The translations under genes and the position numbers were made by a program. Of a DNA stretch of 46,168 bases, positions 9,024 through 45,475 are shown piece by piece (within the stretch, counting starts at the first letter, position 1; the number at the start of each line of letters is the position of its first letter). Source of the stretch: Terriglobia bacterium. GTDB lineage: Bacteria; Acidobacteriota; UBA6911. The DNA is taken from the NCBI GenBank assembly GCA_020072565.1, contig JAIQGI010000049.1:1-46168 (forward strand), read 5' to 3'. The notes beneath the pieces are model-generated. The model worked only from the letters and a program-made list of their open reading frames with translations, was not told where the DNA came from and did no database searches.

Positions 9024-10325
9024 TCATGCCGCTTTGCCCAGGATGGAGCTGAGCAAGCCGACCAGCGCCCCGCCCAGCACGAGCCATGCTGAATTGAAGC
9101 GAAAACGGAGGAGCAGAATCAGACTTGCTGCCAGGAGAGCTAGTGTCACCAGATCAACCAACGCCGCCCGGCCAAGCTGATAAGTCACCACCGCCATCAA
9201 CGACAAAGAAGCTGCGTTAACGCCATCCAGAAACGCACCTGCCGTCGCGGATTTCCTGATTCGAGGCACGATAGGGCCACTCATGGCTACGAATAGGAAC
9301 GCAGGGAGAAAGATTCCGATGGTGGCAACGGCTGCTCCTGAAGGGCCGCCGAGCACGTAGCCGATGAAGGTGGCGGTGGTAAAGACCGGTCCAGGCGTGA
9401 CCTGCCCAACGGCGATGGCGTCCAGCAGTTGCCCTTCGTTCAACCAATGCCAGCGCGTGACCAGATCAGCGCGCAGGAAGGCCAGGAGCACGTAACCGCT
9501 ACCGAAGAGCACGGAACCGACTTTTAAAAAGAATAGCAAGAGCGGCCATAAACCGAATGGAGCAGCCGTCGCCCCAGCCGTGGCGGTTGCCTGCATGAGG
9601 ACGGCGAGCGGCGCGCCCTGAACGAAGGAGAGAAGGCTTTTGCCCTGCTTTCTGTTTTTGACCAGCCAGTTCCCAAGGCCAACTATCAGCCCTCCTCCGA
9701 AGAGGATGGCCAGTTCGTTGACCCCGAGAAAGCTGAGAACAACTCCTGCAGCTCCGACGATTGCCAATGACCTTGTCCGGAGTGCGGCCCGTCCAAGTCC
9801 CCATAGAGCTTGCAGGACGACGGCAATGATCACGGGTTTCACCCCGTATAGAATGGCGCCCACCTGCGGGAGCGAGCCGAAGCGGACGTAAGCCCAGGCG
9901 AACCCTGTGACGATGAGCACTGCCGGCAGGATGAAGCAGCTTCCTGCAACCAAGAGGCCCGGCCACCCTGCTCGCCGATGTCCGACATGGATCGCCATTT
10001 CGGTCGAGTTCGGACCCGGGATCAGGTTAGTTGCACCAAGCAAATCGAGGAACTCCTCTCGCGACAACCACCGGCGGCGCCGGACAACCTCATCCTCCAT
10101 CATCGCGATGTGAGCAGCCGGCCCGCCAAAGGCAATCGTCCCAAGTTTCAGGAATAAGAACGCCAGCTCAAGAAGGGGTGCGCGTTTCTGACGCGCAGGC
10201 GGTTCCTTCCCGATCGTTGGAGGAGAAGCCATTTTCATTCCGGCCCCATCACCAATAGGATGGATTCCCGACGCTTGTTTGTATTCATGTCCATACTCTT
10301 CATCCTCTCTCTGGCGGTCAGACAT
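9024..10325 (-). CDS. chrA: ChrA-family chromate transporter (two CHR domains)
   Basis: A 433-residue membrane protein with two homologous CHR domains. The first starts at FLKLGTIAFGGPAAHIAMME and includes LLGATNLIPGPNSTEMAIHV. The second has FLKVGSVLFGSGYVLLAFLR and IAVGQVTPGPVFTTATFIGY. The repeated P-G-P and FG(G/S) motifs are family hallmarks. ChrA proteins export chromate from the cytoplasm, driven by the proton-motive force; many relatives have untested substrates. The first 45 or so residues are hydrophilic and atypical, and a downstream ATG (near 10236) would give a more usual N terminus. No strong ribosome binding site separates the two options. It lies between DoxX and the efflux operon on the same strand. 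Confidence 0.9.
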   Translation of the reverse strand: MSDRQREDEEYGHEYKQASGIHPIGDGAGMKMASPPTIGKEPPARQKRAPLLELAFLFLKLGTIAFGGPAAHIAMMEDEVVRRRRWLSREEFLDLLGATNLIPGPNSTEMAIHVGHRRAGWPGLLVAGSCFILPAVLIVTGFAWAYVRFGSLPQVGAILYGVKPVIIAVVLQALWGLGRAALRTRSLAIVGAAGVVLSFLGVNELAILFGGGLIVGLGNWLVKNRKQGKSLLSFVQGAPLAVLMQATATAGATAAPFGLWPLLLFFLKVGSVLFGSGYVLLAFLRADLVTRWHWLNEGQLLDAIAVGQVTPGPVFTTATFIGYVLGGPSGAAVATIGIFLPAFLFVAMSGPIVPRIRKSATAGAFLDGVNAASLSLMAVVTYQLGRAALVDLVTLALLAASLILLLRFRFNSAWLVLGGALVGLLSSILGKAA

Positions 10326-22125: not shown

Positions 22126-22237
22126 CCGCCAGGCGCAAACGCACATGGCAAGATCTCAATAGAGGACCGAGACTGGTGCATAGTTCGTCTGCCGGTAAAG
22201 CCGCGCTTGCCGACACCCATTTCAGGAGGTTATTTTC

Positions 22238-22876
22238 ATGGAACGCTGTTGCATACTGACGCCTGCGGCTACTAATTGTAGCAATAAAACCGGGGAACGC
22301 TTATCGGTGATCAAGCTGAGAAAGAGGAGTTGTTCGATTGCAGCCGGCGGCCTCGTGACTGCCATTTCCGATTGCCTTTCAGCGGAGTCATTCGTTAGGA
22401 TGCCGAGAAAGAAAGTGAAGAGCCCCAACATGCAGAAGCAACGATGTCTACTTGCGACCATAACCGGTGAGCCGTTCCAGCCGGTGCGGCTTTATTATTC
22501 GATCCCGGATCGTTTGTTCGTGGTCAAGAAGCTCCGGGCGATGAAGTGCATGCTCGAAGTTCCTCCGGAGCGATGCTGGCAGTGGTTGTTTCAGAGTGAG
22601 GCAGCGGCACTCCGATTCCCGGGCGAATATGACGCCGTACCGAAGGAAGAACGCCCCATCGTCCTCGGCCGCATTCGCTTTCCGCAAAAAGACGGCATGA
22701 CCCTGCAGACGAATTCCATCCCGCGGGCGATCGAGGGAGCGCGGTTCTTTGGAACGCGTCTCGGGCCCGAGGTCGTCGCCATGCGGTGCCGCGTGGTCAA
22801 CCGGTGTTTCGCTGCCGACGAAGGCAGGCTTGATGAACTGATGGAGACCCCTCGACCGCGACGTTACTGTGATTGA
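22238..22876 (+). CDS. Hypothetical accessory protein
   Basis: A 212-residue product, ATG preceded by AGGAGG at 8 nt, so this start is well supported; an alternative is the ATG of MQKQRCLLATITGEPFQPVR (about 22432). The second half contains RLYYSIPDRLFVVKKLRAMK, RFPGEYDAVPKEERPIVLGR and SIPRAIEGARFFGTRLGP. I do not recognise the family. It follows the ParA-Rep gene by 112 bp on the same strand and overlaps the next gene by 8 bp, so it probably belongs to the same element and transcript. Confidence 0.65.
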   Translation: MERCCILTPAATNCSNKTGERLSVIKLRKRSCSIAAGGLVTAISDCLSAESFVRMPRKKVKSPNMQKQRCLLATITGEPFQPVRLYYSIPDRLFVVKKLRAMKCMLEVPPERCWQWLFQSEAAALRFPGEYDAVPKEERPIVLGRIRFPQKDGMTLQTNSIPRAIEGARFFGTRLGPEVVAMRCRVVNRCFAADEGRLDELMETPRPRRYCD

Positions 22877-23186
22877 GCCACGCGAGGCTGAGGAAGCTAT
22901 GAGGCGGGAATTCGCGGGCGTCCGGATGCCGCAGGATGCTGAGCGAGCCGCCGAGGAATTCGTGGAGCGGAAGCTAAAGAGTAAGGAGGACGTCCCCTTG
23001 GTTGAAGATTTTCCTCTTGTCCCCGAAGAAGACACGCCCGAGTTCCGCGAACTCGCGACCACCTTGCAACTGCGCGGGGTGCGAGCGCTCGAGCACTGGC
23101 AGGGCAACACGCACCTGACGCTGGCCGCAATCATCGTGCGGACCATTAAGGGAAACATGCGCCGCTCCCGCCACACTCAAACGTAG
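22869..23186 (+). CDS. Hypothetical accessory protein
   Basis: A 105-residue acidic product from a GTG that overlaps the previous gene by 8 bp. It contains REAEEAMRREFAGVRMPQDA and DTPEFRELATTLQLRGVRAL. Predicted mostly helical and soluble; no family recognised. The tight overlap indicates co-translation with the preceding gene, a pair that is likely functional together. Confidence 0.6.
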   Translation: MIEPREAEEAMRREFAGVRMPQDAERAAEEFVERKLKSKEDVPLVEDFPLVPEEDTPEFRELATTLQLRGVRALEHWQGNTHLTLAAIIVRTIKGNMRRSRHTQT

Positions 23187-23221
23187 CCGCCGGCTTCAGC
23201 TAACTCATCCAGGTGGAAACG

Positions 23222-23608
23222 ATGCAAGAGCTGATTCCATCCGAATATCGAGGTTGGTGGCGGATCGTCGAGACTTCCCAGTGGGTGAGCGACAGACTTG
23301 ATTTCCTCGGCCCTGCCCTGATTTCGCTGACGGGCACGGGCGACCGCCTGCGGATGCATGCGCTCCTTGCCTATGTCAACTGCAAGCCGACCAAGTCCGG
23401 CGTGTCATTTACTTGGCAAGGAGCGTGGGAGTTCGACCAGATGTCTGGTTCCGGCCGGGTGACTCTGGGAAGGGACGGCCGGCTCAGAGGTGTCATCAAG
23501 ATCAAGGGTGGAGACTCGAGCAATTTCATAGCAGAACGGTCGGTCGAGCCGAACGTGCCGATTCCGGATCCCCCGAGCTACCGAGACAAGTGGCGAAAGC
23601 GTTGGTAA
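23222..23608 (+). CDS. Hypothetical protein of a small conserved-looking family
   Basis: About 128 residues from the ATG at 23222, with AGGTGG 5 nt upstream; an in-frame GTG at 23213 is the alternative. It reads MQELIPSEYRGWWRIVETSQ, then LDFLGPALISLTGTGDRLRM and GVSFTWQGAWEFDQMSGSGR. The alternating hydrophobic pattern and repeated glycine turns suggest an all-beta, lipocalin-like small domain. I have no function for it. It is third in the plus-strand cargo run after the ParA-Rep gene. Confidence 0.65.
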   Translation: MQELIPSEYRGWWRIVETSQWVSDRLDFLGPALISLTGTGDRLRMHALLAYVNCKPTKSGVSFTWQGAWEFDQMSGSGRVTLGRDGRLRGVIKIKGGDSSNFIAERSVEPNVPIPDPPSYRDKWRKRW

Positions 23609-23707
23609 GTCAGGGAGGTTGGATAGCCTTCCCACCCGAATTCCGTTCCGCGCCAGCACCCAGTTTGGGGAATTGACGAAATTCTCTGGAGCCGAGTCAT
23701 CCCGATC

Positions 23708-24484
23708 TCAGTGAATCGTTTCGGGCCCGCCATTCTCCTCTTCGTCCTCGAAAAAGGGTTCGAGCGGCTTTGCTTCAGGCGGCGGAGGCGAGTAGCGGAT
23801 CCAATTCCCGAGTTCGGCGACGCTGCTGATCCACTCTTCCAATGCCATCTTGAACCGTCGCGCGAGACGAGCGAGTTCCTTACTGTTACCCCTTTCGGCA
23901 TCCCGACGGTCAGGGTCATCCCAGACGCGCGGCACTTGAGCCAGCTGAAACGCCGAGACACTAAGGCCAGTGAGAGAGAGCTCGCCTTCAGGTTTGCATT
24001 GAACCTCGAGCTTAGCGTCTTCCCGGCATCCCGTCACGGCAACGATTTGCCCTTCGCGCTCCTGGATATCGGTCAGCAGCTTGTCGAGTTTATCGCCAAC
24101 GGTAGCGGACCAGGAACCGAGAAGCTGTGGGTCCGGTATCCGAGCTGTTGAACCATACGGAAGAGACGCGTGGAGCTTGAGATCGACTCGTACCCAGCGC
24201 CGCTGAGTCTTCGGATTGCGTACTCTCCTCCCAAGCATCTCTGTGAGAACGTCTTCCTCGCAAGTGTGTCCGCGAGCGGCGTTGACTGAACTCCAGCGGA
24301 AGGCGATCTCGGCTGAGACGCCAAAGGGTTCCGTGCTCTTACGCTCACCTCGCCAAGTGTAGACTTGCCAGTTCCGGTCCATGCTCTCAATGTCGACAGT
24401 CTCGCTTGGGCTTTCGACCCCGATAAGCAGCCCGACGGCGCGAAGAGCATCTTGCAGTTGATCGCGAAACTCATCGTAGCGCAT
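23708..24484 (-). CDS. Hypothetical protein, 258 residues
   Basis: Starts MRYDEFRDQLQDALRAVGLL with AAAGGGG about 6 nt upstream. It contains STEPFGVSAEIAFRWSSVNA, RRWVRVDLKLHASLPYGSTA and GSWSATVGDKLDKLLTDIQE, and ends in an acidic tail. No family recognised; it reads like a soluble alpha/beta protein. It is the last minus-strand gene after the AbiE pair, separated from the toxin by about 330 bp, so it may be a third component or unrelated cargo. Confidence 0.6.
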   Translation of the reverse strand: MRYDEFRDQLQDALRAVGLLIGVESPSETVDIESMDRNWQVYTWRGERKSTEPFGVSAEIAFRWSSVNAARGHTCEEDVLTEMLGRRVRNPKTQRRWVRVDLKLHASLPYGSTARIPDPQLLGSWSATVGDKLDKLLTDIQEREGQIVAVTGCREDAKLEVQCKPEGELSLTGLSVSAFQLAQVPRVWDDPDRRDAERGNSKELARLARRFKMALEEWISSVAELGNWIRYSPPPPEAKPLEPFFEDEEENGGPETIH

Positions 24485-24813
24485 GTGATTCCCCTTTGGA
24501 GTCCATGAGTTCCACCCTCGTGGCGGGCATCCATGCCGGTTAGTAGCAGAACCGCGTCATAGGGTCGGAGCCCACTCGCATCTGATCGGAGACCCATAAT
24601 AGCGCAACCAGCGCATTTCCGCCGTCACGTAGTCGATGCCGGGGAGAATCGGGAAGATGACCCGTCAACAAGCGGCCGTCGTGGACCAGCCGGTGGTCAT
24701 CTATGGCGAGCGCGGGGCTGCTGCTGAGGCAGAACTCAAGCCGCCATCTCCAATCCTGATTCGCCCAGTAGTCACCCCGATCCGCGAATGGGCGAGCAAG
24801 TGGTCTTACGTGT
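24485..24813. other. Gap between the AbiE toxin and the 258-residue gene
   Basis: No supported gene. A minus-strand frame of 100 codons (24540-24842) overlaps the end of the toxin gene and has no ribosome binding site or family motif, so I did not call it. It could hold the promoter of the 258-residue gene. Confidence 0.4.
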
Positions 24814-26265
24814 TCAATATCTGGTCGTGACATAGGATCCAATGCGACTCGAGCAGGGGTAGCCGCTCTTGGTTTTGTGCGCCCTCAATGTCGAATCATA
24901 CTGCGAATGCTCGAACCTCTTGCCGCAGGAGACGCACTGAAAAACGTATCGGAGCTGTCCAGAGCGGCGTACAGAATACATATTTGGTCTTGAGGTTCGG
25001 GTTGGCCTCACAGAAGGAGATGACGTTCGCACCGCTCGAGAAATCTCCGGCACGTGTAGAGGGGCGGCGAGGCTGAGTTCCACTTCGTATCGCGGCCTGA
25101 ATGGCTGGCTGGTCGCGCGCGCTCCTAGGATTCGATCCACGCGATATGATCGATCCTGACCGTTGTCGCTACGAACGGCATAAAGAAGAATGTCCCCTGC
25201 CTTGGTGCGCCGCAGCGAATACGGTTCAATGAGCCTGGAGCCAACCCTGCCCTGCTCGTCGCGGTATTCAAGATCCACACAAAGACGGTTGGCGGCAGCA
25301 AAACGGACAATCTCGACAGGCGCTGCAATGCCCTCGGCACGCCACGAATGTGCCATTGTCGGCACACGCCATGCGGTGTCAATGTCGGTGCCGAGCGTTC
25401 CTATAGTTGGACGGCGCGGCGCGATCTCTTTGCGTTCGAGCCATGCGAAGACCGACGGCAGCTCATTCCAGAACGAGTCGAATGGCGGCAATCCTGCCAG
25501 CTGGTGTGCAAGCATTTGTTCCCAATCAGCACGCAACTCAGGGTGTTGAGGGCTTGAGAGCAAACTCGCGACCGTAGGGATCGCTATACCCTTGAATTCG
25601 CATTTGGCCGCAAGCGTAGTGCGGATTGACGCCCGGTTGATGTCCACGGCACGACGATAAAGGTGCACTACGTCGTACAGGTCGCGCGGCCGCTGGCGTT
25701 CCGCGAGCGCGCGCAGTTTTTCGGCAAACACCTCTTCAAAACAATACGCAAGCACTTCGATTCCACCCTCAGGTTCGTCGGTATAGGGGTGGTGGACGTG
25801 TCTGCGCTCGCCTTTGAGAACGACCCGCTCGTCATCTGTCAAGTCGAACCGGATCCGGGGCAAACTGGCCTGGCGCTGCATGGGTCCCCTGTAACCCAGT
25901 CGGCCCTGTGCCGACTTCTTGGCCCGAGGGTTTATGTACACTTCGAACACGCGCTCATTCTCCGGTAGTTCGATGCCCGATTGGTCATACACCCACTGCG
26001 TGATTTCCGAAAACAGCTGGCGCAGAACTGCGTCGTCCACATGGGAGCTGTCGAGCAGAGTGAAGTCGAGGTCTTCCGAAAACCGATAGGTCTCGAAGTA
26101 GCACTTCTTCAGACATGTGCCGCCCTTAAACAGCCAAGTATCCCGAGTTCTCGGATGGGATGAAATTCCAGCCAACATCCACCCGAGAACGTAATCCTTC
26201 TCTACCACGTTTGGGTCGATCCCCACCTCCCGGGCAAATCCTAGAATTTCTTCCTTGCCGATCAC
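24814..26265 (-). CDS. abiEii: AbiEii nucleotidyltransferase toxin with C-terminal WYL domain and zinc ribbon
   Basis: About 483 residues from a GTG that overlaps the antitoxin stop (GTGA). The N-terminal nucleotidyltransferase has FKGGTCLKK and SEDLDFTLLD (about residues 46-70), the catalytic motifs of the AbiEii/DUF1814 toxin family, and a later helical part FAEKLRALAERQRPRDLYDV. Unusually, a WYL-like domain follows (VEIVRFAAANRLCVDLEYRD to SYRVDRILGARAT), then a Ser/Arg-rich linker and a zinc ribbon with CVSCGKRF, a His and YPC. Classical AbiEii is about 300 residues without these additions. WYL domains usually sense ligands or nucleic acid, so the toxin may be regulated beyond its antitoxin (inference). 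Function expected: abortive infection or element maintenance. Confidence 0.88.
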   Translation of the reverse strand: MIGKEEILGFAREVGIDPNVVEKDYVLGWMLAGISSHPRTRDTWLFKGGTCLKKCYFETYRFSEDLDFTLLDSSHVDDAVLRQLFSEITQWVYDQSGIELPENERVFEVYINPRAKKSAQGRLGYRGPMQRQASLPRIRFDLTDDERVVLKGERRHVHHPYTDEPEGGIEVLAYCFEEVFAEKLRALAERQRPRDLYDVVHLYRRAVDINRASIRTTLAAKCEFKGIAIPTVASLLSSPQHPELRADWEQMLAHQLAGLPPFDSFWNELPSVFAWLERKEIAPRRPTIGTLGTDIDTAWRVPTMAHSWRAEGIAAPVEIVRFAAANRLCVDLEYRDEQGRVGSRLIEPYSLRRTKAGDILLYAVRSDNGQDRSYRVDRILGARATSQPFRPRYEVELSLAAPLHVPEISRAVRTSSPSVRPTRTSRPNMYSVRRSGQLRYVFQCVSCGKRFEHSQYDSTLRAHKTKSGYPCSSRIGSYVTTRY

Positions 26266-27074
26266 CGCACTGCCTCCTTCGAAAATCCTGCAGGCACCCA
26301 CAGCCGCCAACTGCTTACGAGCCGGTTTGCGGGAAGCTTAGGATCCAGCTTGGCGTTTCCCGCCGACAGGCGCGCCCGGCAAGCGTCGATGATCTCCTGT
26401 TCTCCTTCGAAAAACACGGAGGACAAATAGCCGAGTCGCTTGAACACCGCCTTGTTGCCGAGCTGGTCGGCATAACGAATTAGCATCTGCGTATCGCGAT
26501 GCTGAGAGCCGTAATAAGATTTGAGCACATCTATAACAGATCGGATACCCCCACCAAGAGCCGGCGTGTCGAGCATGTCCAGAATAGTTCGCGTTGGATC
26601 TGAAGTGTTAACTCGGACGGGCCCTCTCCAGACAGGTTTGAGGCCAAACATCGCGCGCTTTCTCACACTGCGCACGACGAATGAAGTTCCCTGAGCATCA
26701 ATCCGGCGTGCTCGCGGCCGACGTGAGGTAATGACCAAGGTTGAACGGAAAACTTGTTCGGTGAAGCCCCAGTATTCCGCGGCACTCCAACCTCCGATGT
26801 AGCATGGAGCGAAAATCTTGTCTGCCACCACCCACGCATCTTCCACTGCGATGTCCGGTGTGGATGATTCTAGCGGAACGGGGAGAAATAGACCTCGACG
26901 TACTCGCGTCAGCCAGCCGCGTGTTGCCCATCCAGCAAGCAACCGCGTTGCTTCCTTCCGGCTGACGCCCAGCGCTCTTGCGGCGTCATTGGCGGCAATA
27001 ACGCCTCTGATTTGGCGAAGGACCCTCGCCAGCCGATCGCGCGATGCACCCCTGAGGCCACCAAACTGGTCCAT
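26262..27074 (-). CDS. abiEi: AbiEi antitoxin / transcriptional regulator
   Basis: About 270 residues from the ATG at 27074 (MDQFGGLRGASRDRLARVLR). The N-terminal winged helix (GVIAANDAARALGVSRKEAT, then LAGWATRGWLTRVRRGLFLP) matches the AbiEi_4 antitoxin domain. The C-terminal AbiEi domain has YIGGWSAAEYWGFTEQVFRS, TRTILDMLDTPALGGG and the helical end. AbiEi proteins neutralise AbiEii and repress their own operon by binding inverted repeats at the promoter. The stop overlaps the toxin GTG by 4 bp, the standard antitoxin-first order. A longer in-frame start (27206) is less likely because the family begins near MDQF. Confidence 0.9.
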   Translation of the reverse strand: MDQFGGLRGASRDRLARVLRQIRGVIAANDAARALGVSRKEATRLLAGWATRGWLTRVRRGLFLPVPLESSTPDIAVEDAWVVADKIFAPCYIGGWSAAEYWGFTEQVFRSTLVITSRRPRARRIDAQGTSFVVRSVRKRAMFGLKPVWRGPVRVNTSDPTRTILDMLDTPALGGGIRSVIDVLKSYYGSQHRDTQMLIRYADQLGNKAVFKRLGYLSSVFFEGEQEIIDACRARLSAGNAKLDPKLPANRLVSSWRLWVPAGFSKEAVR

Positions 27075-35206: not shown

Positions 35207-35422
35207 AGCACTATTGGGCTGAAAAACGGCAGGGTCTTCGGAAATAAGACGAGCATATGCGCTGCCTTGGAGCTAAAATGCACCATGGGTGCGGCGACCC
35301 GCAATGGGTCGGCGCAGGACTTCACCGGGTGGTCGGGCCGCCATCCAGATCTCGCGATGCGCGTCTGTGGACGTCGAGTCGCGTGCAAGCCCCGAACAGT
35401 ACGCGGGTATCTGGAGGTGGGA

Positions 35423-35773: not shown

Positions 35774-35816
35774 GGACCGGGACCCATCGACAACGATTCC
35801 CTTGGAGGTCCTCTCG

Positions 35817-37121
35817 GTGAAGATTCTGCTGCTTTGCGCAATGGTACTCTTGCCGCAATTCGCCATGGCGAGCGATGCCGGCAGTCATCTCGATCCCGTA
35901 GGCGGCATTGCCCTGGCCCTGGTCATTATCCTCGTTGTGGCCAAACTTGGCGGCGACCTCGCGGTTCGACTTGGACAGCCTGCTGTGCTTGGCGAGCTGA
36001 TCGGCGGAATTTTGGTGGGCACTCTCCCGCTTCTGGGCGTCTCCGATCTTGAATGGCTGAAGACCGATCCGAATCTTGACATGCTGGCCAGGATCGGCGT
36101 GCTGATTCTGCTCTTCGAGGTCGGCCTCGAATCCACCGTAGGTCAGATGTTGAAGGTGGGATACTCATCCCTTTTGGTAGCGACACTGGGTGTGGCCGCG
36201 CCCTTCGCTCTCGGGTGGGGGGTGGGCGCATGGATGCTGCCGGAGCAAGGTCCCTATGTGCATGCATTCCTGGGCGCCACACTCACTGCAACGAGTGTCG
36301 GCATCACGGCGCGAGTACTGAAGGACCTGGGCAGTTCCAAGAGCAACGAAGCGCGCGTGGTGCTCGGCGCCGCGGTCATCGACGACGTGCTTGGTCTCGT
36401 AATCCTTGCGGTTGTCACCGGAATCATCACTGCCGCGAATAGTGGGGAGTCATTAGCGGCAGGAGAGATCGCCTTCATCCTTGCAAAGGCAATAGGTTTC
36501 CTGGTCGGAGCGCTTGTCCTGGGAGTTCTCTTCTCAAAACGGTTTTTTTCTCTTGCGTCCAAACTTCGTGCCCGTGGTGTCTTGCTCGCCACCGGACTCG
36601 TATTCTGCTTTTTGCTCTCCTGGCTTGCAGGTGTCATCGGACTGGCTCCGATCGTCGGCGCATTCGCCGCCGGGCTTATCCTGGAGGACGTCCACTATCG
36701 CGATTTCGTGGAGCGGGGCGAACATGGTCTGGAAGACCTGATCCACCCGATTTCCTCGTTTCTGGTCCCGATCTTCTTCGTCGTGATGGGCATGCGGGCG
36801 AATCTAGGATCCTTTCTTCAGCCTGGAATCATTGGCCTGGCCGTTGCTCTCACCGTCGTTGCCATCCTCGGGAAGCAGGCGTGTTCGTTGGGCGTCCTCG
36901 GCAAGGGTGTCGATCGCCTCACCGTCGGCATTGGGATGATTCCCCGAGGTGAGGTCGGGCTCATCTTTGCAAACATCGGTGCAACACTGACCATTGGCGG
37001 CCATCGAGTCATCAGTGAATCGACGTTCTCTGCGGTGGTCGTCATGGTAATTATGACAACCATGGCGACGCCTCCTGCTCTCAAATGGAGCCTGGGGCGA
37101 TTGAGGCCCGCCCGAGGATAA
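35817..37121 (+). CDS. Cation:proton antiporter (CPA2, KefB/NapA-like)
   Basis: 434 residues from a GTG at 35817 with GGAGG 8 nt upstream; TTG 35802 is possible. A signal-like first helix is followed by about 12 transmembrane segments: GQPAVLGELIGGILVGTLPL, FEVGLESTVGQMLKVGYSSL, ATSVGITARVLKDLG, and the ion-binding Asp pair VIDDVLGLVILAVVTG. A later stretch is IGLAPIVGAFAAGLILED, and GMIPRGEVGLIFANIGA ends the transport core. No C-terminal RCK/TrkA-N domain, unlike KefB/KefC. It exchanges Na+ or K+ for H+ across the inner membrane. Fluoride-riboswitch regulons elsewhere include Na+/H+ antiporters, but no riboswitch precedes this gene. Confidence 0.9.
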   Translation: MKILLLCAMVLLPQFAMASDAGSHLDPVGGIALALVIILVVAKLGGDLAVRLGQPAVLGELIGGILVGTLPLLGVSDLEWLKTDPNLDMLARIGVLILLFEVGLESTVGQMLKVGYSSLLVATLGVAAPFALGWGVGAWMLPEQGPYVHAFLGATLTATSVGITARVLKDLGSSKSNEARVVLGAAVIDDVLGLVILAVVTGIITAANSGESLAAGEIAFILAKAIGFLVGALVLGVLFSKRFFSLASKLRARGVLLATGLVFCFLLSWLAGVIGLAPIVGAFAAGLILEDVHYRDFVERGEHGLEDLIHPISSFLVPIFFVVMGMRANLGSFLQPGIIGLAVALTVVAILGKQACSLGVLGKGVDRLTVGIGMIPRGEVGLIFANIGATLTIGGHRVISESTFSAVVVMVIMTTMATPPALKWSLGRLRPARG

Positions 37122-37193: not shown

Positions 37194-37350
37194 TTATCTC
37201 TTGCCATCCATCGTGGAGTTGATGTTTCGAATTCTACCTTCGATCAGAACGCGGCGGACGTTTTGGATCATCCGGTATAGTGCGCGCCCTGCGATCACTG
37301 CGGGGATTCATAAAATGGTGCCGGGATTACCGCCGGTCAGGCGGTACAAT
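37194..37350 (-). pseudogene. 3' fragment of a second copy of the AAA ATPase gene
   Basis: Reverse-strand reading gives LTGGNPGTIL, a stop, then RVLIEGRIRNINSTMDGKR and TAA. This parallels LTGGNPGAISQT and RMLIEGRIRNIASAMGGEK of the AAA gene at 39950-40690. DNA similarity to 39946-40098 extends over about 150-170 bp, in the same orientation. The fragment and the AAA gene therefore flank the rph-like gene as imperfect direct repeats. Confidence 0.8.
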
Positions 37351-37441
37351 GCGTTCACAGCACAGGTTTAAAATGCGGCCGCACCCGGGCCCCGATGTCG
37401 CAGTCGGCGAATTTGGGCAGGCCCACACCGGTGGAGCACCA

Positions 37442-39925
37442 ATGAAATACATCGTCCGGCTTGACGAAATCACGATGGCCGATTTTGACCTCGTCGGAAG
37501 CAAGGCAGGGAGGCTCGGAGAGCTGGCGCGCGCGGGCTTTCCGGTGCCACCCGGCTTTTGCGTGACCGTGGCCGCATTCCAGTCGTGTTACCGTCCGCAG
37601 CCGAGCAACGGCCGACTGGAAATTGGAGAGATTCCATCCGACATTGCCCGCGAGATTATCAATGCCTACACTTCGCTCGGTCACCCCACCGTAGCCGTAC
37701 GCTCCTCGGCAACCGCGGAGGACACGCGCGAGTTTAGTTTCGCGGGTCAGTACGAGAGCTTCCTGCAGATTGTCGGCACCGACAGACTGCTCCGCGCCAT
37801 TTGCGATTGTTGGGCGTCGCTATGGTCCCCTCGTGCCGTCGCCTACCGGGAGCGCGTGGCGCCGAGCGGGGCGCCGCCGGCGATGGGCGTCATCGTGCAG
37901 GCGATGGTGCCGGCGCGCACCTCCGGCGTCATGTTCACCGCCAACCCCGTCACCAGCGACCGCGAAGAGATCGTCATCACGGCCAATCCGGGCCTGGCGA
38001 CGCTCGTGGTGTCGGGGCGGGTGATGCCGGACACGTACCGGCTCGACAAAGACAAAGTGAAAGTGCGCGTTCGCTTCATCGCCGAGAAGGTCGAAATGGA
38101 AGTCGCGGAGGACGATGCAACTCGCGTCGTCCCGGTGCCCGAGAAGCGGCGTCGCGCCTCGACGTTGACGCCGCGTCAGTCGTCTGAACTCGCCCGCCTG
38201 GGCCTACGAATCGAAGGGCATTTCGGCGCGCCCCAGGACATCGAATTCGCCCACGACGGCCGGCGGTTCTTCATCGTCCAATCGCGGCCGATCACCGGGC
38301 TGGTGTCGTGGGGGGACCAGAAGAAAGGGACCATGCTGATACGCAGCAGCATGCTCGAGTTGATGCCCCGGCCCGTTTCTCCGCTGTTCGAAACCACCTA
38401 CCTGCCGCTCGGCGCTGAGGTCCTGAGGCAAATTACGAGGGAGTTCGGGATAGCCCTCCCACCAGATGCGGGTCAGGTGGTCACCATCAACGGTTACGTC
38501 TTCGCCCGCGCCGACCGGAGCAGATTTCACATACTCTCGGCGGTGCGCCTGCCGTCCCCGCGTGGGTGTCTGCGCTATCTCAGCGACCTGTGGAGGCACG
38601 GCTGGCGCCGCACCGAGCTCGCGCAGTACCAGCGGATTGTCGCGAAGTGGAAAGATCTCGCCGCGCAAAGCCTCGACCCGGCAACGCTGTGGCTGGCAAT
38701 CATCGAAATTTGTCGCGCGAATGCGGACTACTTTCGCGCCGTGATGTGCAACCGCATGAGCGGTCAGATCGAGGCGTTCTTCACCCGGATGTATCCGTTC
38801 GTGGTTCCGGAACGGCACCTCTTGCCGCTTGCGTTATTACTGCGCGGCCATGACAGTGAAGTGACGAGAGCCGAAAAGGAGCTGCACGCGCTCTCCGAAG
38901 CGGCCCGCGAGGATGCCGGGCTCCGAACGGTACTCGTCGAAACGCCGGCCGGCGAGGTCGAGGCCAGATTGGGACAGAGCGTGGCCGGACGCGCGTGGCT
39001 TTCGCGCTTTCACGAGTACCTGGATCGGAACGGTTTCCAGATTTCGAACCTCGACTTCATGGAACCGACGCTCGGCGAGTGTCCCGCCCTGGTGCTCGCA
39101 CGGATCAAACTGTTCCTTGCCGACGAGTCGCCGCTTCCGCGGGTCGAGCAGGCGCGGCGCGACCGGCTCGCCGCCGAAGCCCGCTTGAAGGCCTCGGTCG
39201 GTCCCGTGCGACGCGCGGTGGTGTCGTCGATGCTAGCGCTTCTCGACTACGGCCTGGTGTTCCGCGAGGATGTGCTGTTCTTCTTCGGGCGCGGTTGGCC
39301 AACCGTCCGGCGGTTCATTCTCGAACTCGGCGCCCGGATGGTGCGCGCCGGTTTCCTCGAAGATCCGGCGGACGTGTTCTTCGTCACCGCGACGGAGCTC
39401 CAAGAGGCGTTCGGCGCGCAACCCGACGTCGATACGGAGCAGATGAAGCGGAACGTGCACGAGAGACGCGAACGCTGGAAGCGGAACCAGGTGCTGAAGC
39501 CGCCGGTCCTGCTCCCGGGTCTGTTCAAGGTCTTCGGCCTTCGCCTGAGCCGCTGGATGCCTGAGTACGGCGCGGCGGGCGCCGGCAACGGAATCCGCGG
39601 CATCCCGGTGAGCCCGGGACGTGTGACCGCTCCAGCTTCGGTCATCCACTCGATCAAGGAATTCGATCGGATGAAGGCCGGCAATGTGCTGGTCGCGCCG
39701 ATGACATCCCCAGCCTGGACGCCTCTGCTCGCCATGGCCGTGGCCGTCGTCACCGACATCGGCGGCGTGCTCTCTCACGCGTCGATCGTGGCACGAGAGT
39801 ACGGGATTCCCGCGGTCATCGGAACAGGCGTCGCCAGCCATCGAATCGCGGACGGTCAGGTCGTCACCGTCGACGGCGACGCGGGGCGAGTCTCTATCAA
39901 CGACCTGGGCGACAAGCCGTACTAG
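37442..39925 (+). CDS. Phosphoenolpyruvate-synthase-like phosphotransferase, rifampin phosphotransferase (Rph)-like
   Basis: 827 residues from ATG 37442, preceded by GGTGGAG. The ATP-grasp N-terminal domain has GSKAGRLGELARAGFPVPPG, AVRSSATAEDTREFSFAGQY and SGVMFTANPVTSDREEIVIT, up to about residue 300 (EFAHDGRRFFIVQSRPI). A large central domain (SMLELMPRPVSPLFETTYLP onward) follows. The C-terminal swivelling phosphohistidine domain has GGVLSHASIVAREYGIPAVI with the His at about 779. Domain order ATP-grasp, central, His domain fits rifampin phosphotransferase rather than PEP synthase, whose His domain sits in the middle. Actual substrate unproven. It is convergent with the AAA gene (25 bp apart) and flanked by AAA 3'-end repeats. 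Confidence 0.82.
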   Translation: MKYIVRLDEITMADFDLVGSKAGRLGELARAGFPVPPGFCVTVAAFQSCYRPQPSNGRLEIGEIPSDIAREIINAYTSLGHPTVAVRSSATAEDTREFSFAGQYESFLQIVGTDRLLRAICDCWASLWSPRAVAYRERVAPSGAPPAMGVIVQAMVPARTSGVMFTANPVTSDREEIVITANPGLATLVVSGRVMPDTYRLDKDKVKVRVRFIAEKVEMEVAEDDATRVVPVPEKRRRASTLTPRQSSELARLGLRIEGHFGAPQDIEFAHDGRRFFIVQSRPITGLVSWGDQKKGTMLIRSSMLELMPRPVSPLFETTYLPLGAEVLRQITREFGIALPPDAGQVVTINGYVFARADRSRFHILSAVRLPSPRGCLRYLSDLWRHGWRRTELAQYQRIVAKWKDLAAQSLDPATLWLAIIEICRANADYFRAVMCNRMSGQIEAFFTRMYPFVVPERHLLPLALLLRGHDSEVTRAEKELHALSEAAREDAGLRTVLVETPAGEVEARLGQSVAGRAWLSRFHEYLDRNGFQISNLDFMEPTLGECPALVLARIKLFLADESPLPRVEQARRDRLAAEARLKASVGPVRRAVVSSMLALLDYGLVFREDVLFFFGRGWPTVRRFILELGARMVRAGFLEDPADVFFVTATELQEAFGAQPDVDTEQMKRNVHERRERWKRNQVLKPPVLLPGLFKVFGLRLSRWMPEYGAAGAGNGIRGIPVSPGRVTAPASVIHSIKEFDRMKAGNVLVAPMTSPAWTPLLAMAVAVVTDIGGVLSHASIVAREYGIPAVIGTGVASHRIADGQVVTVDGDAGRVSINDLGDKPY

Positions 39926-39949: not shown

Positions 39950-40690
39950 TTACTTCTCGCCACCCATCGCGGAGGCAATGTTTCGAATTCTACCTTCGAT
40001 CAGCATGCGGCGGACGCGAATGGGATCGTCCAGCGGAGTGCGCTCCAGGCGAATCACATCGAGGGTTTGTGATATGGCGCCGGGATTGCCGCCGGTCAGA
40101 CGGAGCAGTTCGTTCCCGATCGAATTCCTGAGCGTTCCGTGGTAGCCCATAAGCTGGAGTTCTTCATCGATCCACGGAAGAGCGCTCTCCTTGGGCAGGT
40201 CGCGTATTTCCATCAAGTCGAACTTCCAATAATAAAGATCGTAACTATCCCGCGATGCGGTAACCCCGAAGGCAAGAGTGCAATGCTCTTCGAGCATTTC
40301 CAAAAGGTGTTGCATCCTAGAGCGGATCCTCCTCGGGTGATCCAGAATGAGGCAGATGGGTCGTTCACAGCTGATCCGGATGAGTGCGTTTCGCAGGTCT
40401 CTGAGAAGGTAGCCTCCGCGCTCCACGGCGGGATCCGCCTTCGCTGACACAGATGCTCTAAGATCCACTGCCAACGCTTCAAGCGCATTCTGGAGCAAAA
40501 CTCTCCGAGTGCTGCAGTCGCCCACATAAGGAGCAAGCCTTGAAGCATCATGGTTGGACGAAAGGCGCCGGGCGGCCTCGCGGAGCAGGATGCTCTTGCC
40601 AACCCCTGCTGCGCCGAAGACGAGGGTGTGCACTCCCTGTTCTAAGTTTGTTACAAGCCTTTTGATTTCCCTCTCTCTGCCGTAAAGCAT
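39950..40690 (-). CDS. AAA+ ATPase next to the dynamin-like gene
   Basis: 246 residues with Walker A FGAAGVGKSILLREAARRLS (about residues 24-43) and Walker B PICLILDHPRR (about 110-120), plus arginine-rich ALIRISCERP. The C-terminal part has LLRLTGGNPGAISQTLDVIR, the helical lid typical of STAND/ORC-like ATPases. No DNA-binding or other domain is seen. Its ATG lies 27 bp after the stop of the dynamin-like gene, and both are downstream of the leftward fluoride riboswitch, so they form one operon. Possible roles include a loading or regulatory partner of the GTPase (inference). Confidence 0.85.
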   Translation of the reverse strand: MLYGREREIKRLVTNLEQGVHTLVFGAAGVGKSILLREAARRLSSNHDASRLAPYVGDCSTRRVLLQNALEALAVDLRASVSAKADPAVERGGYLLRDLRNALIRISCERPICLILDHPRRIRSRMQHLLEMLEEHCTLAFGVTASRDSYDLYYWKFDLMEIRDLPKESALPWIDEELQLMGYHGTLRNSIGNELLRLTGGNPGAISQTLDVIRLERTPLDDPIRVRRMLIEGRIRNIASAMGGEK

Positions 40691-40717: not shown

Positions 40718-42772
40718 TCAACTTCGCGTCGTCTCGATTTCCGTTTGTGGACCGCCTGGGACTTCTGCTTGGACCGCCTGCCCGCGCAGAAACTCGATAT
40801 CTACCATAAGAGAGCTATCGCCTGCGGTTGAACCATTGGATGCCCGCACCGGTTGACGGTATCTCAGAGGATCCGTCTGCAGGCGAAAGCTCTCGCGGAG
40901 AGCGTTGATCGTCGCCACAAACCAGTGCCGAAGCCGCGGGCGGAGCTCGTCCAATAGTTGCTGTAAACTGCGTCCGGCCATTTCCTCGAGGTCTCTGCGA
41001 AAATGCCTCTCGCGGAGCGCCTGGCTCATTCGCATCAGGGGGCCGGGATCCGATATCGAGACGCCGTCCAACAGCGACACGACAGGCGATGGGAGCGCGG
41101 AGGGTCGCGGAAGCTCGTAGGCTTCAACAGCCCGTGCGGACGGATCTTCCTTTCTTAACTCATCCAATTCCTGGCGAATGCGGCCGGCGAGGGACTCGTA
41201 TTCTTGCAAGAAGGGGTGGTAGCGCGATGCGGCGACTTCTATGACGGCATCCGCAAGCGCGGTTACCTTTTGGCCGGGTTGATCCAGGGCATCCCCGGAA
41301 GCTCGGGCCAATCTTGAAGAGGCCTTTCCGAGCGCTTCTTCCGCCCAATCGTCCATCGTTTCCAGATTATCCTGCCAGCGTCGGGCGAATTCATCCAGAC
41401 TCTCATCGAGGGGCCGCAGAGCCCGTTCCGCCTCCTGCGACTGGTTCTCCCCTCCGCTGCCGCGGCTCGCCCGCATCTCCAGAGTCACAAGAATGGACTC
41501 GCGCAATGATTGCGCCTTCCGGTTCAGTGAGATTGTCAGAGACTCGCGAGCACGCTGAAGCGAGGGTGCAATGGTCTGTTCGAACCACGCATGGATTTTC
41601 GGAACCCACGAATCCACAGAACTGATCGGGATCACCTCAAGTGAGGCGCCTAGGTGCTCGGCAACAGCAGCGCGGGTATACGAAACGACCTTCTCAATGT
41701 CATCCGGGGGGAGCAGGTCGCATTTGCTGATCAGCACGATCGATGGAATGCCGGCGGCATGAAGCGATCGAAGAAGATCCAGGTCATCGCGTCCCAGAGA
41801 CGAATGACCGTCCACCAACACTACTCCGAGATCGGAGTCCGGAAGATAGGCGTAGGAGAGTTTAGTCCCGCTCGTGGCGAGCGAGGCGATACCCGGCGTA
41901 TCCACAAACGCTACGCCTTCCTGAAGCCGCTTTGCCGGAACGGCCACCTCGATGCCGACGACCCGTTTCGAGTTCGCCGGATTCCCCTGCTCGGTGGCAA
42001 ACTCAGGAAGGCGCTCGACGGGAAGGTCCTTGATTCCTTCGGGAAACGATACCTTCAATTGCGGCCTATCGCCGGCGATGATGTGAATAGGAACCGCAGT
42101 GATAGGGGTGGACCCCACAGGCAGCAACTGGATTTCCAGAAGCCGGTTGATCAGAGACGACTTCCCGCAGCTTACCCTTCCGAAGACCGCTATCTCGTAG
42201 CGATGGGATTCGAGCTTTCGAATGATTGAATCCAAGGCCGAGAGATATTCGACCAAGCCGTGTCGCGCAATGATCTGAGACAAGCGTTCGAGCTGGCGAC
42301 CGAGTGCCGGTTCAGCCTGAATTCGGGCGAGGCGTTTCTCCTGGGCTCCGCTAGCCTCCGCCAGGAAGGCCAATAGCTGGCTGACCAGCCTGCGAACCTC
42401 CTGAAGCGTCCAGGTAAGATCTCCCCCTGCCGCCGGATCCATTTCACCGTAACCGCGCATTTGTCCCGGGTACAGATCTTCCAGAGCGATATCGAGGGAC
42501 ATGAGTTTGGTGCGCAACGCCCAGCTCGAAAGGGTATTCGGAGGGGAAACGGTAATTTCAAACCGTTCCAAAAGCCGCGACATCTGCTCTCGAATCTTGC
42601 CGGCGTAGCTCTCAACCCAGTGAGACTCCGATGTGGATACATCCCTGACGAAGCGGGGACGGAGAGCGCCGCCAGTGGCTCCAAGGAGATTCAGGCTCTC
42701 GCTCAGCAATTCATCCGCATACTGTATGGTGGTGAGTATCTTTCGCCTGTGGTTTTCGTTCAGACCCGCCAT
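40718..42772 (-). CDS. Dynamin-like GTPase under a fluoride riboswitch
   Basis: 684 residues from ATG 42772, with GAGGTGG 4 nt upstream. After a helical N-terminal region of about 190 residues, the GTPase domain has G1 GRVSCGKSSLINRLL, G2 threonine in PVGSTPITAVPI, G3 VDTPGIASLATSG and G4 LISKCDLLP. A long helical stalk region follows (QSQEAERALRPLDESLDEFA, LAGRIRQELDELRKED). No clear transmembrane paddle is evident. Bacterial dynamin-like proteins remodel or stabilise membranes and often come in pairs; a degenerate partner is divergent at 43340. The gene is preceded by a promoter, fluoride aptamer and terminator (42899-43014), so it should be induced by fluoride. Confidence 0.9.
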   Translation of the reverse strand: MAGLNENHRRKILTTIQYADELLSESLNLLGATGGALRPRFVRDVSTSESHWVESYAGKIREQMSRLLERFEITVSPPNTLSSWALRTKLMSLDIALEDLYPGQMRGYGEMDPAAGGDLTWTLQEVRRLVSQLLAFLAEASGAQEKRLARIQAEPALGRQLERLSQIIARHGLVEYLSALDSIIRKLESHRYEIAVFGRVSCGKSSLINRLLEIQLLPVGSTPITAVPIHIIAGDRPQLKVSFPEGIKDLPVERLPEFATEQGNPANSKRVVGIEVAVPAKRLQEGVAFVDTPGIASLATSGTKLSYAYLPDSDLGVVLVDGHSSLGRDDLDLLRSLHAAGIPSIVLISKCDLLPPDDIEKVVSYTRAAVAEHLGASLEVIPISSVDSWVPKIHAWFEQTIAPSLQRARESLTISLNRKAQSLRESILVTLEMRASRGSGGENQSQEAERALRPLDESLDEFARRWQDNLETMDDWAEEALGKASSRLARASGDALDQPGQKVTALADAVIEVAASRYHPFLQEYESLAGRIRQELDELRKEDPSARAVEAYELPRPSALPSPVVSLLDGVSISDPGPLMRMSQALRERHFRRDLEEMAGRSLQQLLDELRPRLRHWFVATINALRESFRLQTDPLRYRQPVRASNGSTAGDSSLMVDIEFLRGQAVQAEVPGGPQTEIETTRS

Positions 42773-42898
42773 CAATCCACCTCATTCAGAGCAGAAGCTG
42801 AAGTCGAATGCGCTGGAAGCACGGAGGGGCAGGTTGCCTGACATGTCACGACTGCCGTTATTTCCCGTTTCTGCACAATCTTGGGATCCGGCAATCAC

Positions 42899-42936
42899 AA
42901 AAAAACTCCTACCGGATCCGTGCTCCAGTAGGAGTT
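42899..42936 (-). terminator. Riboswitch-controlled intrinsic terminator, leftward
   Basis: On the minus strand AACTCCTAC (42936-42928), a 15-base loop, GTAGGAGTT (42912-42904), then seven T. The 5' arm is the same segment that forms the aptamer's pseudoknot strand AACTCC, so ligand-bound aptamer and terminator are mutually exclusive. This is the expected fluoride ON switch. Confidence 0.9.
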
Positions 42937-42977
42937 ATCAATCTCTTGGGAGATGGTTAACGGCGAACTCCATCGCC
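42928..42977 (-). ncRNA. Fluoride riboswitch (crcB motif), leftward
   Basis: The minus strand reads GGCGATGGAGTTCGCC, then GTTAACC, a stem ATCTC/GAGAT, TGAT and AACTCCTAC. Every conserved piece of the crcB/fluoride aptamer is present: P1 GGCG/CGCC around ATGGAGTT, the AAC linker, P2, TGAT, and the pseudoknot GGAGTT (42971-42966) with AACTCC (42936-42931) before TAC. It is directly followed by the overlapping terminator and then the dynamin-like/AAA operon. The aptamer binds fluoride through Mg2+ ions (family knowledge). Confidence 0.92.
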
Positions 42978-42985
42978 TGCCATTT

Positions 42986-43014
42986 ATTCTAACTTTCGCC
43001 CGCTAACGAGTCAA
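42986..43014 (-). promoter_or_regulatory. Sigma70-type promoter of the leftward fluoride operon
   Basis: TTGACT (43014-43009), a 17-bp spacer, TAGAAT (42991-42986). Both hexamers are close to consensus and the aptamer begins 8 bases downstream of the -10, as expected for a riboswitch starting at the 5' end of its transcript. Confidence 0.85.
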
Positions 43015-43132
43015 TGCGCATGGTGGTCTGAGTGCTCGAACTGCTCGCTCATGAAATTGCATCTCTTGGCTTTGGCTGCCGCCAAAAGACGGGTCGGAGC
43101 CCACAAATCCAACCAGCACAATGGCAACCAGC

Positions 43133-43161
43133 TTGCGCCCACAACTTGGCATTGGTATCAT
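43133..43161 (+). promoter_or_regulatory. Sigma70-type promoter of the rightward fluoride operon
   Basis: TTGCGC (43133-43138), 17 bp, TATCAT (43156-43161), with the aptamer starting 12 bases later. The -35 is weaker than that of the leftward promoter. Position relative to the aptamer mirrors the other side. Confidence 0.7.
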
Positions 43162-43173
43162 GAATCCGCTATT

Positions 43174-43222
43174 GGCGATGGAGTTCGCCGTAACCGGCCG
43201 GCCCGGCCTGATAACTCCTACC
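43174..43222 (+). ncRNA. Fluoride riboswitch (crcB motif), rightward
   Basis: GGCGATGGAGTTCGCC (43174-43189), GTAACC, a GGCC/GGCC stem, TGAT and AACTCCTACC. P1, the AAC linker, TGAT and the pseudoknot GGAGTT (43180-43185) with AACTCC (43213-43218) all match the fluoride aptamer and the leftward copy; P2 sequence differs, which preserves structure rather than sequence. CTCCTACCT (43215-43223) can alternatively pair with AGGTAGGGG (43237-43245), giving a hairpin that excludes the pseudoknot. It leads the gene pair dynamin-like remnant plus enolase. Confidence 0.92.
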
Positions 43223-43267
43223 TCAAAGGAAGATCCAGGTAGGGGCCAGTAATCTGAATTCGAAGAG

Positions 43268-43298
43268 ACCCGCCTGGGACCATTCAGGTGGGTTTTTT
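43268..43298 (+). terminator. Intrinsic terminator in the leader of the rightward fluoride operon
   Basis: ACCCGCCTG (43268-43276), an 8-base loop, CAGGTGGGT (43285-43293), then a T run. It lies between the aptamer and the first coding region, so it is the likely control point, acting through the alternative hairpin 43215-43245 rather than by direct overlap with the aptamer. Confidence 0.85.
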
Positions 43299-43339: not shown

Positions 43340-44192
43340 ATGATTGGCAAAAGCACCACAGTCGCAATGCAGCAGTTACTATCGACCGCAATTGACCGCG
43401 TCCGGACGATCCGAACGAAGTACCGGATGGCGGCAATCGATCCACACCTGGAAGCGTGCGGTGCCCTGTTGGAGGAAAGGGGCCTGATCGACGTCGGCAT
43501 CTTCGGCCGCTTCAAAGCCGGCAAGAGCTCGCTTCTGAACCTTCTCGCGAAGAGGAACGTCCTGCCGGTGGGCGTGACCCCGGTAACCACCGTCATTACG
43601 CGGCTCCGTTACGGCCAGAAGGAACAGGCAACAGTCAAATATTCGGATGGCCGGACGGAAAGTACTCCCATCTCGGCGGTTGCGTCATATGTTTCTGAAG
43701 CCGAAAATCGCCAGAACACAAAAGGGGTTGCCGCGGTTACCGTGGAATTGCCCGCGTTGGAGCCCTATCAGGGCCTCCAGTTTGTAGACACCCCGGGCCT
43801 GGACAGCGTGTCCCAGCATAATACGGACGCAGCTCTCGGATGGCTGCCCAAGGTGGGGCTGGCACTGGTTACGATGAAACTGGTTCATCATTCCCATGAG
43901 CGTGTTCCGCTCCTGGGCGGACAGGCATTTTCTGAAGCGCATTCCTGACGAGGTCGAGGAAAACCTGGCGCGCGTGGCTTCGCAGTGGACAGAGAGAATC
44001 AATGCCGCAATCCAGACCATTCAGAGAGAGGCCGAAAAGAGCATCCGCGAGCAGGTTTCGACGGTGGAATCACTGCTCTCCAGTACGCAATCCGAAGTCG
44101 AAGGCATCAGATCCGCAATCGTAGAAATCGAGTCACTGAGTTCGTATCAGCCCTTATCAGAATATTTCACTACTACAGAGGAGAAAGCATGA
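43340..44192 (+). pseudogene. Second dynamin-like GTPase, internally deleted and frameshifted
   Basis: The first frame (43340-43948) has an intact GTPase front: G1 FGRFKAGKSSLLNLLAKR, G2 PVGVTPVTTVIT, G3 FVDTPGLDSV, then ALGWLPKVGLALVT. After this the sequence jumps. The G4 motif and stalk are gone, and a different frame (43896-44192) gives a C-terminal coiled coil, [20 protein letters not shown] to [14 protein letters not shown]. The two frames are pieces of one gene of about 600 residues; several hundred codons are missing between about 43870 and 43896. The second frame stops at TGA overlapping the enolase ATG, so the ancestral gene was coupled to eno. Both parts could still be translated; activity is doubtful. 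Confidence 0.82.
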
Positions 44193-45475
44193 ATCCCAAA
44201 ATTGTTTCGGTTCGAGCATTGGAAATCCTGGACTCTCGTGGCAATCCCACCTTGAAGGTTTTTGTGGCCCTGGATAACGGAACGGTGACCAGCGCTTCCG
44301 TCCCTTCGGGGGCGTCCACGGGAGAAAACGAAGCCTGCGAACTGCGCGATGGCGATCAGAACCGGTATGGCGGCAAGGGCGTGTTGAGAGCCGTCGCCAA
44401 TGTCATCGAGACGATTGCGCCCGCATTTGTAGGAATGGACCCTGTCCGGCAGGCCGCGATTGACCGTAAGATGATCGAGCTCGACGGTACTCGCAATAAG
44501 AGCCGGCTCGGCGCCAATGCCATCCTTGGTGTTTCCATGGCGGTTGCCAGAGCGGCGGCTGCAACCTGCGGTCTGCCGCTTTACTCCTACCTGGGAGGTC
44601 CGGGTGCTGTGCGCATACCCGTTCCGATGATGAACATCATCAACGGCGGCAAGCATGCCGACAACAGCGTAGACTTTCAGGAATTCATGGTAATGCCCAT
44701 CGGCGCGCCGAGCTTTGCCGAGGCGCTGCGCTACTGCGCCGAGGTCTTCCAGTCCTTAAAGAAGATCCTCAAGGGGCGTGGCGATGTCACCGCGGTCGGC
44801 GATGAGGGAGGATTTGCCCCCAACCTGAAAAGCAACGAAGAGGCTTGCGAGGTCATTGTTAAAGCCATAATCAGTGCCGGCTATAAGCCCGGCAAGGATA
44901 TTGCCATCGCGCTGGATCCCGCGGCCAGTTCGTTTTTCGAAGACGGCGCCTACGACCTCTCGAAGTCGCGCCAGGGAAAAAAGACCAGCACGGAAATGAC
45001 GGCTCTCTATCAATCCTGGATTGACAAGTACCCCATCATCTCGATCGAGGATGGCCTGGCGGAGAACGATTGGGATGGATTCCGCGAGCACACGGAAAAG
45101 TTGGGGTCGAGGATCCAAATTGTCGGCGACGACCTCTATGTCACCAATACCCGCTTCATTGCACGAGGAATCGCCGAGAAATCCACCAACGCGGTACTCA
45201 TCAAACTGAACCAGATCGGCACCGTCACGGAAACTATTGAGGCGATCCAGCTGTGTCGCAAGGCAGGATGGGGATTTGTCATCTCCCATCGTTCCGGTGA
45301 AACCGAAGACACCTTTATGGCCGACTTCGCCGTCGCCATGAGTGGAGGCCAGATCAAGAGCGGCTCCGCCTGCCGCAGCGAGCGGATCGCCAAGTACAAC
45401 CGGCTTGTGGAAATTGAGGCCGAGCTTGGGAAGTCAGCCGTTTTCGAAAATTCCCTCTCTGCGTTCAAGAGATAA
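44189..45475 (+). CDS. eno: Enolase, in a fluoride-riboswitch operon
   Basis: 428 residues, the normal length, with ATG 44189 preceded by GAGGAG and overlapping the dynamin-like remnant's stop (ATGA). Motifs: [67 protein letters not shown], the metal-binding acids in [21 protein letters not shown] and VGDDLYVTN, and the signature [16 protein letters not shown], then [15 protein letters not shown]. It interconverts 2-phosphoglycerate and PEP; fluoride with phosphate inhibits it, and eno genes are known members of fluoride-riboswitch regulons. It lacks no catalytic motif. It may be a second, stress-induced enolase, but the window cannot show whether another exists. Confidence 0.96.

Follow-up and report, generated by a model that had tools for sequence, protein, structure and literature searches.

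Why should a bacterium without a recognisable fluoride exporter carry two fluoride riboswitches back to back, and what do they control? The question arises from a 46,168-nucleotide contig of a Terriglobia bacterium (hereafter the window), in which two divergent aptamers face two operons. The locus can probably be read as a fluoride-induced unit of paired, membrane-acting dynamin-like GTPases (dynamin-like proteins, DLPs) with a replacement enolase, in which one partner, DLP-B, has decayed in this lineage; we consider this reading of the sequences likely.

Two fluoride riboswitches in a genome without a known exporter

An Rfam scan of the whole window matched the fluoride riboswitch model RF01734 (gathering score 34 bits) once on each strand, with a minus-strand copy at 42986–42922 (51.4 bits, E = 1.8e-11, model positions 1–64) and a plus-strand copy at 43165–43227 (50.3 bits, E = 4.3e-11, model positions 1–64), separated by 178 bp. 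An earlier note, made from the sequence alone, had proposed two such riboswitches, and its coordinates for the aptamer cores agree with the Rfam matches on both strands. The features it listed, P1 (GGCG/CGCC), P2, UGAU and the GGAGUU/AACUCC pseudoknot strands, are present in the alignments and folds of both copies, and the RF01734 alignments show AUGG conserved in both as well. P2 varies between the copies with pairing kept (AUCUC/GAGAU and GGCC/GGCC), as the note had observed. A duplicate-assembly artefact was rejected, since P2 and the leader differ between copies and both lie well inside the contig. Judged by sequence and predicted structure, the paired RNAs are fluoride riboswitches of the ordinary, known kind. 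A search of the 7.46-Mb assembly found no fluoride riboswitch besides this pair.

The absence of crcB and CLC-F from the window, also noted earlier, extends to the whole 98%-complete assembly, in which CrcB gave zero matches. The motifs GSGIP and GREGP are those of chloride-transporting CLCs, and CLC-F proteins differ there; the sole CLC in this genome carries both and is hence of the chloride type. A hidden exporter elsewhere in the genome was rejected on these grounds, and so was a classical exporter-linked regulon, as no CrcB/Fluc or CLC-F was found under either riboswitch or in the genome. The overall picture is thus supported: two divergent operons, each under a fluoride riboswitch, with no exporter found. 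The identity of the RNAs had been recognised correctly in the earlier note; the genes under their control, the decay of DLP-B and the architecture of the plus platform had not.

Promoters and expression platforms

A promoter with 17-bp spacing had been assigned to each copy. This stands for the minus unit, where the scan returned a sigma-70-like site (TTGACT-17-TAGAAT, 42986–43014, minus strand; 10/12 matches, a consensus match only). For the plus unit the case is weaker: the promoter scan returned none, and the site read by eye (TTGCGC-17-TATCAT, 43133–43161, plus strand) is weak and promoter-like at 8/12.

Both leaders have the intrinsic terminator described for them, but only that of the minus copy overlaps its aptamer (42936–42904, minus strand; 13-bp stem and T-run). 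The 5' arm of this terminator is the 3' pseudoknot strand of the aptamer, AACUCCUAC, and a U run follows the stem. The hairpin forms in the free fold; when the pseudoknot strands are held unpaired, seven stem pairs remain. Terminator and pseudoknot are predicted to be mutually exclusive in this copy, as is typical for a transcriptional platform. An overlap of this sort is the standard arrangement by which fluoride switches a gene on, and by its predicted folds the minus leader is a textbook ON switch.

The plus leader is built differently. In its free fold the pseudoknot strand pairs with AGGUAGGGG, giving an anti-aptamer hairpin (43215–43245, plus strand) that overlaps the pseudoknot strand and is not followed by a U-tract. 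A strong intrinsic terminator (43263–43298, plus strand; 15-bp stem ending in a U-run) lies downstream, separate from the aptamer, and forms equally in free and aptamer-constrained equilibrium folds. In folds, an antiterminator can arise in transcripts of 110–120 nt in which the aptamer is formed. A simple antiterminator was rejected for this leader, as it exists only in the shortened transcripts and is out-competed by the complete terminator. Since the plus terminator is independent of the aptamer and the antiterminator transient, we infer ON logic for the plus copy instead of reading it from the folds.

Gene content of the two units

The minus unit opens with DLP-A (40718–42775, minus strand; 685 aa, Dynamin_N 74.3 bits), a dynamin-like GTPase of the long type with an N-terminal extension of about 150 aa. 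Its Dynamin_N domain, with G1, G3 and G4 motifs, places it in the dynamin superfamily. In alignment the GTPase motifs are intact (G1 GRVSCGKS, DTPG, SKCD), and the invariant residues are G199, G204, K205, S206, D292–G295, K351 and D353. The closest sequence-profile matches among solved structures are BDLP, Cj-DLP1/2, IniA and mitofusin. The predicted fold likewise matches IniA, BDLP, mitofusin and Cj-DLP, with low confidence outside the G domain (pLDDT 59.7 in a first AlphaFold model; mean 65 in a second, low outside the G domain). For the neck/trunk region, fold alignments cover DLP-A residues 155–675, where pLDDT is low. The second gene encodes an AAA_16 ATPase (39950–40690, minus strand; 54.5 bits), relatives of which recur in other fluoride islands.

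In the plus unit, DLP-B has decayed. An N-terminal remnant (43340–43948, plus strand; Dynamin_N 84.3 bits, profile positions 6–174 of 572) keeps G1 and DTPG and lacks G4 and the remainder; a C-terminal remnant lies in a different frame (43896–44192, plus strand; profile positions 472–559 of 572). A complete GTPase and helical region are no longer present. A programmed frameshift was considered and rejected, the gap between the two frames amounting to about 297 profile positions. DLP-B is intact in Methanoregula and other relatives.

Behind DLP-B stands a second-copy enolase (44189–45475, plus strand; Enolase_N/C), full length and with a strong ribosome site. It is up to 77% identical to enolases in fluoride islands of other families, against 58% to the other enolase of this genome, which marks it as a distinct island copy. 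An MFS transporter follows near the contig end (45653–46066, plus strand; MFS_1 positions 3–110 of 347), of which only the N-terminal third is in frame. Genes for MFS transporters are also met repeatedly in fluoride islands.

A relative from the same family (G011) has kept a sub-threshold aptamer and the AAA gene, but of its two GTPases only an N-terminal part (DLP-A) and a C-terminal piece (DLP-B), both having lost their G domains. With DLP-B broken in the window and both G domains lost in G011, the system may be decaying in the lineage, which seems to be losing the DLP pair, while DLP-A, the AAA gene and the enolase are still intact here. DLP-A is presumably still useful alone. The C-terminal remnant of DLP-B is 63% identical to its G011 counterpart with a dN/dS of 0.24, and may be a stand-alone gene. 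The DLP-B breakpoints differ between the window and G011, hence selection on this remnant may predate the loss. In G011 (L044, 8653–10268) the N-terminal domain of DLP-A is an ORF of its own, with a stop, followed by the AAA gene; this ORF pair lies under the sub-threshold fluoride aptamer, and the G domain is gone.

Dynamin-like genes recur behind fluoride riboswitches

A forward census of 138 fluoride riboswitches in Acidobacteriota recorded the first sense gene within 800 nt. This gene encoded CrcB (n = 36), CLC (n = 29), a DLP (n = 25), a Na+/H+ exchanger (n = 22) or enolase (n = 6). On the other sides of the same riboswitches DLP genes were scarce, with none downstream in antisense, one upstream on the same strand and three upstream and divergent. 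The reverse census was an unselected Dynamin_N scan (E ≤ 1e-15) of 396 Acidobacteriota genomes, which detected 45 dynamin genes in 37 genomes. Three quarters of these (34/45) lay in a fluoride-riboswitch unit, ten lay outside and one was cut by a contig end. Among the 34 linked genes, 28 were first in their unit, three of them on riboswitch scores of 30–34 bits, at or just under the threshold. The other six stood further down operons with CrcB, DUF190, MFS, enolase or DLP-A. When 26 genomes were checked singly, nearly all strong dynamin matches were the riboswitch-linked ones. About 170 riboswitches are spread over some 1.6 billion bases, from which we estimate that chance adjacency would produce far below one such case. 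As forward and reverse censuses agree, the link between dynamin and riboswitch is not due to chance.

Two further recurrences were seen in these islands. DUF190 follows CrcB in many Acidobacteriota fluoride operons (for example L046, L104 and L120), hinting at a partner role. Furthermore, ATP-binding proteins resembling LptB-type ABC ATPases were found by eye beside enolase, MFS or dynamin genes (for example L045, 402–983, and L051, 8966–9784).

The link also extends beyond the phylum. An aptamer pattern scan of 84,980 species genomes listed at least 122 aptamers at no fewer than 119 loci, and among the 122 aptamers listed a DLP was the first gene at ten. Among these matches were four methanogen-type archaea (Methanolinea, Methanoregula, another member of the Methanomicrobiales and a euryarchaeote) and bacteria (two Deltaproteobacteria, Syntrophorhabdaceae, a planctomycete and Gaiellales, the last with two tandem aptamers). 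Dynamin_N was confirmed in all ten cross-domain proteins tested. Other matches listed place the DLP inside a fluoride operon: after a Na+/H+ exchanger in Bacteroidales, as CrcB-DLP-enolase in Chitinophagales and as CrcB-CrcB-DUF190-DLP-exchanger-Usp in Hungateiclostridiaceae. The dynamin link hence recurs in Archaea, Planctomycetota, Actinobacteriota, Deltaproteobacteria, Bacteroidota and Firmicutes.

Long and short partners and the divergent layout

In a tree of the G domains the DLPs fall into a long type A and a short type B. Type A comprises DLP-A of the window and copies in G032, G086, G153, a planctomycete and Methanoregula, while most other DLPs, including DLP-B of the window, are of type B. 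The window DLP-A is 40–41% identical to the planctomycete and archaeal (Methanoregula) DLP-A proteins. Both types co-occur in the window, G086, G153, G032, Planctomycetota and Methanoregula, and the long and short genes adjoin each other, as in a pair of the Cj-DLP1/2 type. Their layout varies: in G086 a single riboswitch precedes the two in tandem, in G153 they are neighbours, in the planctomycete they converge, each with its own riboswitch, and in the window and Methanoregula they diverge. The two Methanoregula aptamers, likewise divergent, lie 95 bp apart; one drives enolase followed by DLP-A, the other DLP-B. The same Methanoregula locus (L289, 1–19501) holds six fluoride riboswitches in about 14 kb, an extreme fluoride island.

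The divergent aptamer arrangement is rare. The earlier note had called it unusual, which is right in number (divergent pairs within 1 kb: three among 133 riboswitch-bearing Acidobacteriota genomes), although it is no one-off, as it recurs in other genomes including Methanoregula. In all three Acidobacteriota pairs and in the Methanoregula pair, a DLP gene lies downstream of at least one aptamer. Together with the co-occurrence of types A and B, this makes the layout look like a way of co-expressing two GTPases. Bacterial DLPs occur mostly in pairs, and Cj-DLP1/2 need both partners (PMC6104087). By analogy, we propose that DLP-A and DLP-B are two halves of a heterotypic membrane-remodelling GTPase pair.

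A putative membrane arm of the fluoride response

The 400-bp region between the operons would act as a fluoride-inducible control element working in both directions, with two promoters that each read into their own fluoride aptamer. As fluoride rises, the aptamer, bound to Mg-fluoride, would hold its pseudoknot and the operon would be transcribed. The minus operon would then yield the long GTPase DLP-A and the AAA ATPase; the plus operon would formerly have made the short partner DLP-B, now broken, and still carries the second enolase, which would replace the fluoride-inhibited enzyme. Fluoride gets into the cell as HF, acidifies the cytoplasm and inhibits enolase (PMC11139923). Relatives of the DLPs act on membranes under stress (PMC6104087, PMC8844932). 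On these grounds, the most likely role of the DLP pair, which across bacteria and archaea belongs to fluoride-regulated gene islands, is maintenance or repair of the membrane at a time when pH and energy collapse under HF and fluoride. It is possible, though here our doubt somewhat outweighs our confidence, that the conserved DLP-A/DLP-B pair forms a dedicated membrane-acting fluoride-tolerance system that could serve genomes without a known fluoride exporter.

The DLP could alternatively be a victim of fluoride and not a protector, over-made, like enolase and pyrophosphatase, to offset inhibition of the GTPase by fluoride (as AlFx, BeFx or MgFx with GDP). Enolase, encoded in the same unit, is an established target of fluoride that is produced in excess (PMC11139923), and GDP.AlF4 and GDP.BeF3 states are known for dynamin-family proteins (PMC6104087). 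A housekeeping target would occur without riboswitches, however, whereas the DLP is accessory (37/396 genomes) and found mostly alongside them, and no translation GTPase family appears among the large first-gene clusters. Since the gene is accessory and seldom without a riboswitch, we regard compensation for an inhibited target as improbable.

Decay of the locus invites another explanation, in which both riboswitches are left over from an island being lost in the family and only the aptamers persist. The broken DLP-B, the shortened MFS frame, the plus terminator without aptamer coupling and the loss of both G domains in G011 are consistent with such a remnant, yet both aptamers are fully conserved at 50 bits and the minus platform is intact. 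DLP-A also keeps all its GTPase motifs, and the enolase, with its strong ribosome site, is full length. In comparison with G011, dN/dS is near 0.24 for the AAA gene and for the N-terminal part of DLP-A, so that a mere remnant is doubtful, if less so than target compensation. A specificity variant sensing another ligand might account for the missing exporter, but it is highly improbable given that both aptamers match the fluoride consensus in full and that DLPs elsewhere share operons under the same RNA with CrcB, Na+/H+ exchangers and enolase. We therefore retain the paired, fluoride-induced GTPases as the preferred reading.

To our knowledge, bacterial dynamin-like proteins are widespread and their triggers mostly unknown. 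Fluoride-controlled DLP genes point to a little-noticed part of the microbial fluoride response, and if most DLPs in whole lineages are fluoride-switched, the function of the family becomes directly testable and membrane remodelling joins export, pH control and enzyme replacement as an arm of the fluoride response. This would also suggest a way in which microbes that have neither CrcB nor CLC-F might cope with fluoride.

Other ion-stress genes on the contig

An nhaA-I RNA (Li+-I riboswitch, RF03057, 48.3 bits) was detected at 35287–35346 (plus strand), 7.6 kb from the fluoride pair. It precedes a small membrane ORF and a CPA2 antiporter (35802–37121), the latter giving no match to the exchangers of fluoride islands. 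Between the lithium and fluoride units lies a PEP-synthase-like protein (37280–39925, plus strand; PPDK_N and PEP-utilizers domains), which could supply PEP when enolase is inhibited. It was rejected as a fluoride-island member, as there were no matches in related loci. Further away are an RND efflux set (3013–10325, minus strand; AcrB-type pump, HlyD/CusB and outer-membrane protein) adjoining a chromate transporter, which gives the contig the look of an ion-stress island, and, at 20125–26310, a ParA-like ATPase with a nucleotidyltransferase resembling the AbiEii toxin, which hint at mobile-element content.

Comparison with known systems

No report linking a dynamin-like gene to a fluoride riboswitch was found in the literature searched, the supplements of the founding papers lying outside it, and the co-mention of dynamin and fluoride resistance there concerns chromogranin. 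GTPases are absent from the 2024 review of fluoride responses (PMC11139923).

The window shares with known fluoride riboswitches (RF01734) the consensus aptamer, the position in the 5' leader and, in the minus copy, the overlapping terminator. RF01734 is reportedly the crcB motif of Weinberg 2010 and Baker 2012. The window departs from it in having two copies back to back, a plus terminator not coupled to the aptamer, and a cargo of dynamin-like GTPases and enolase with no exporter. Enolase under fluoride control is also found in the FRM operon of E. cloacae (PMC11139923), whereas the window enolase is a second copy behind a broken dynamin gene on a divergent arm.

Among DLPs, the best profile and fold matches are Nostoc BDLP (2j68), mycobacterial IniA (6j72), B. 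subtilis DynA and ETEC LeoA, for which fluoride regulation is not reported in the literature covered; in DynA, two DLPs are fused in a single chain. Campylobacter Cj-DLP1/Cj-DLP2 (5owv/5oxf) resemble the window pair in combining a long partner with an N-terminal extension and a short partner, and in their dynamin-like G domain and, as predicted for the window protein, helical region (PMC6104087). They differ in that Cj-DLP1/2 are about 15% identical to DLP-A in fold alignment, and that the window pair is riboswitch-controlled and split into divergent units, with DLP-B broken.
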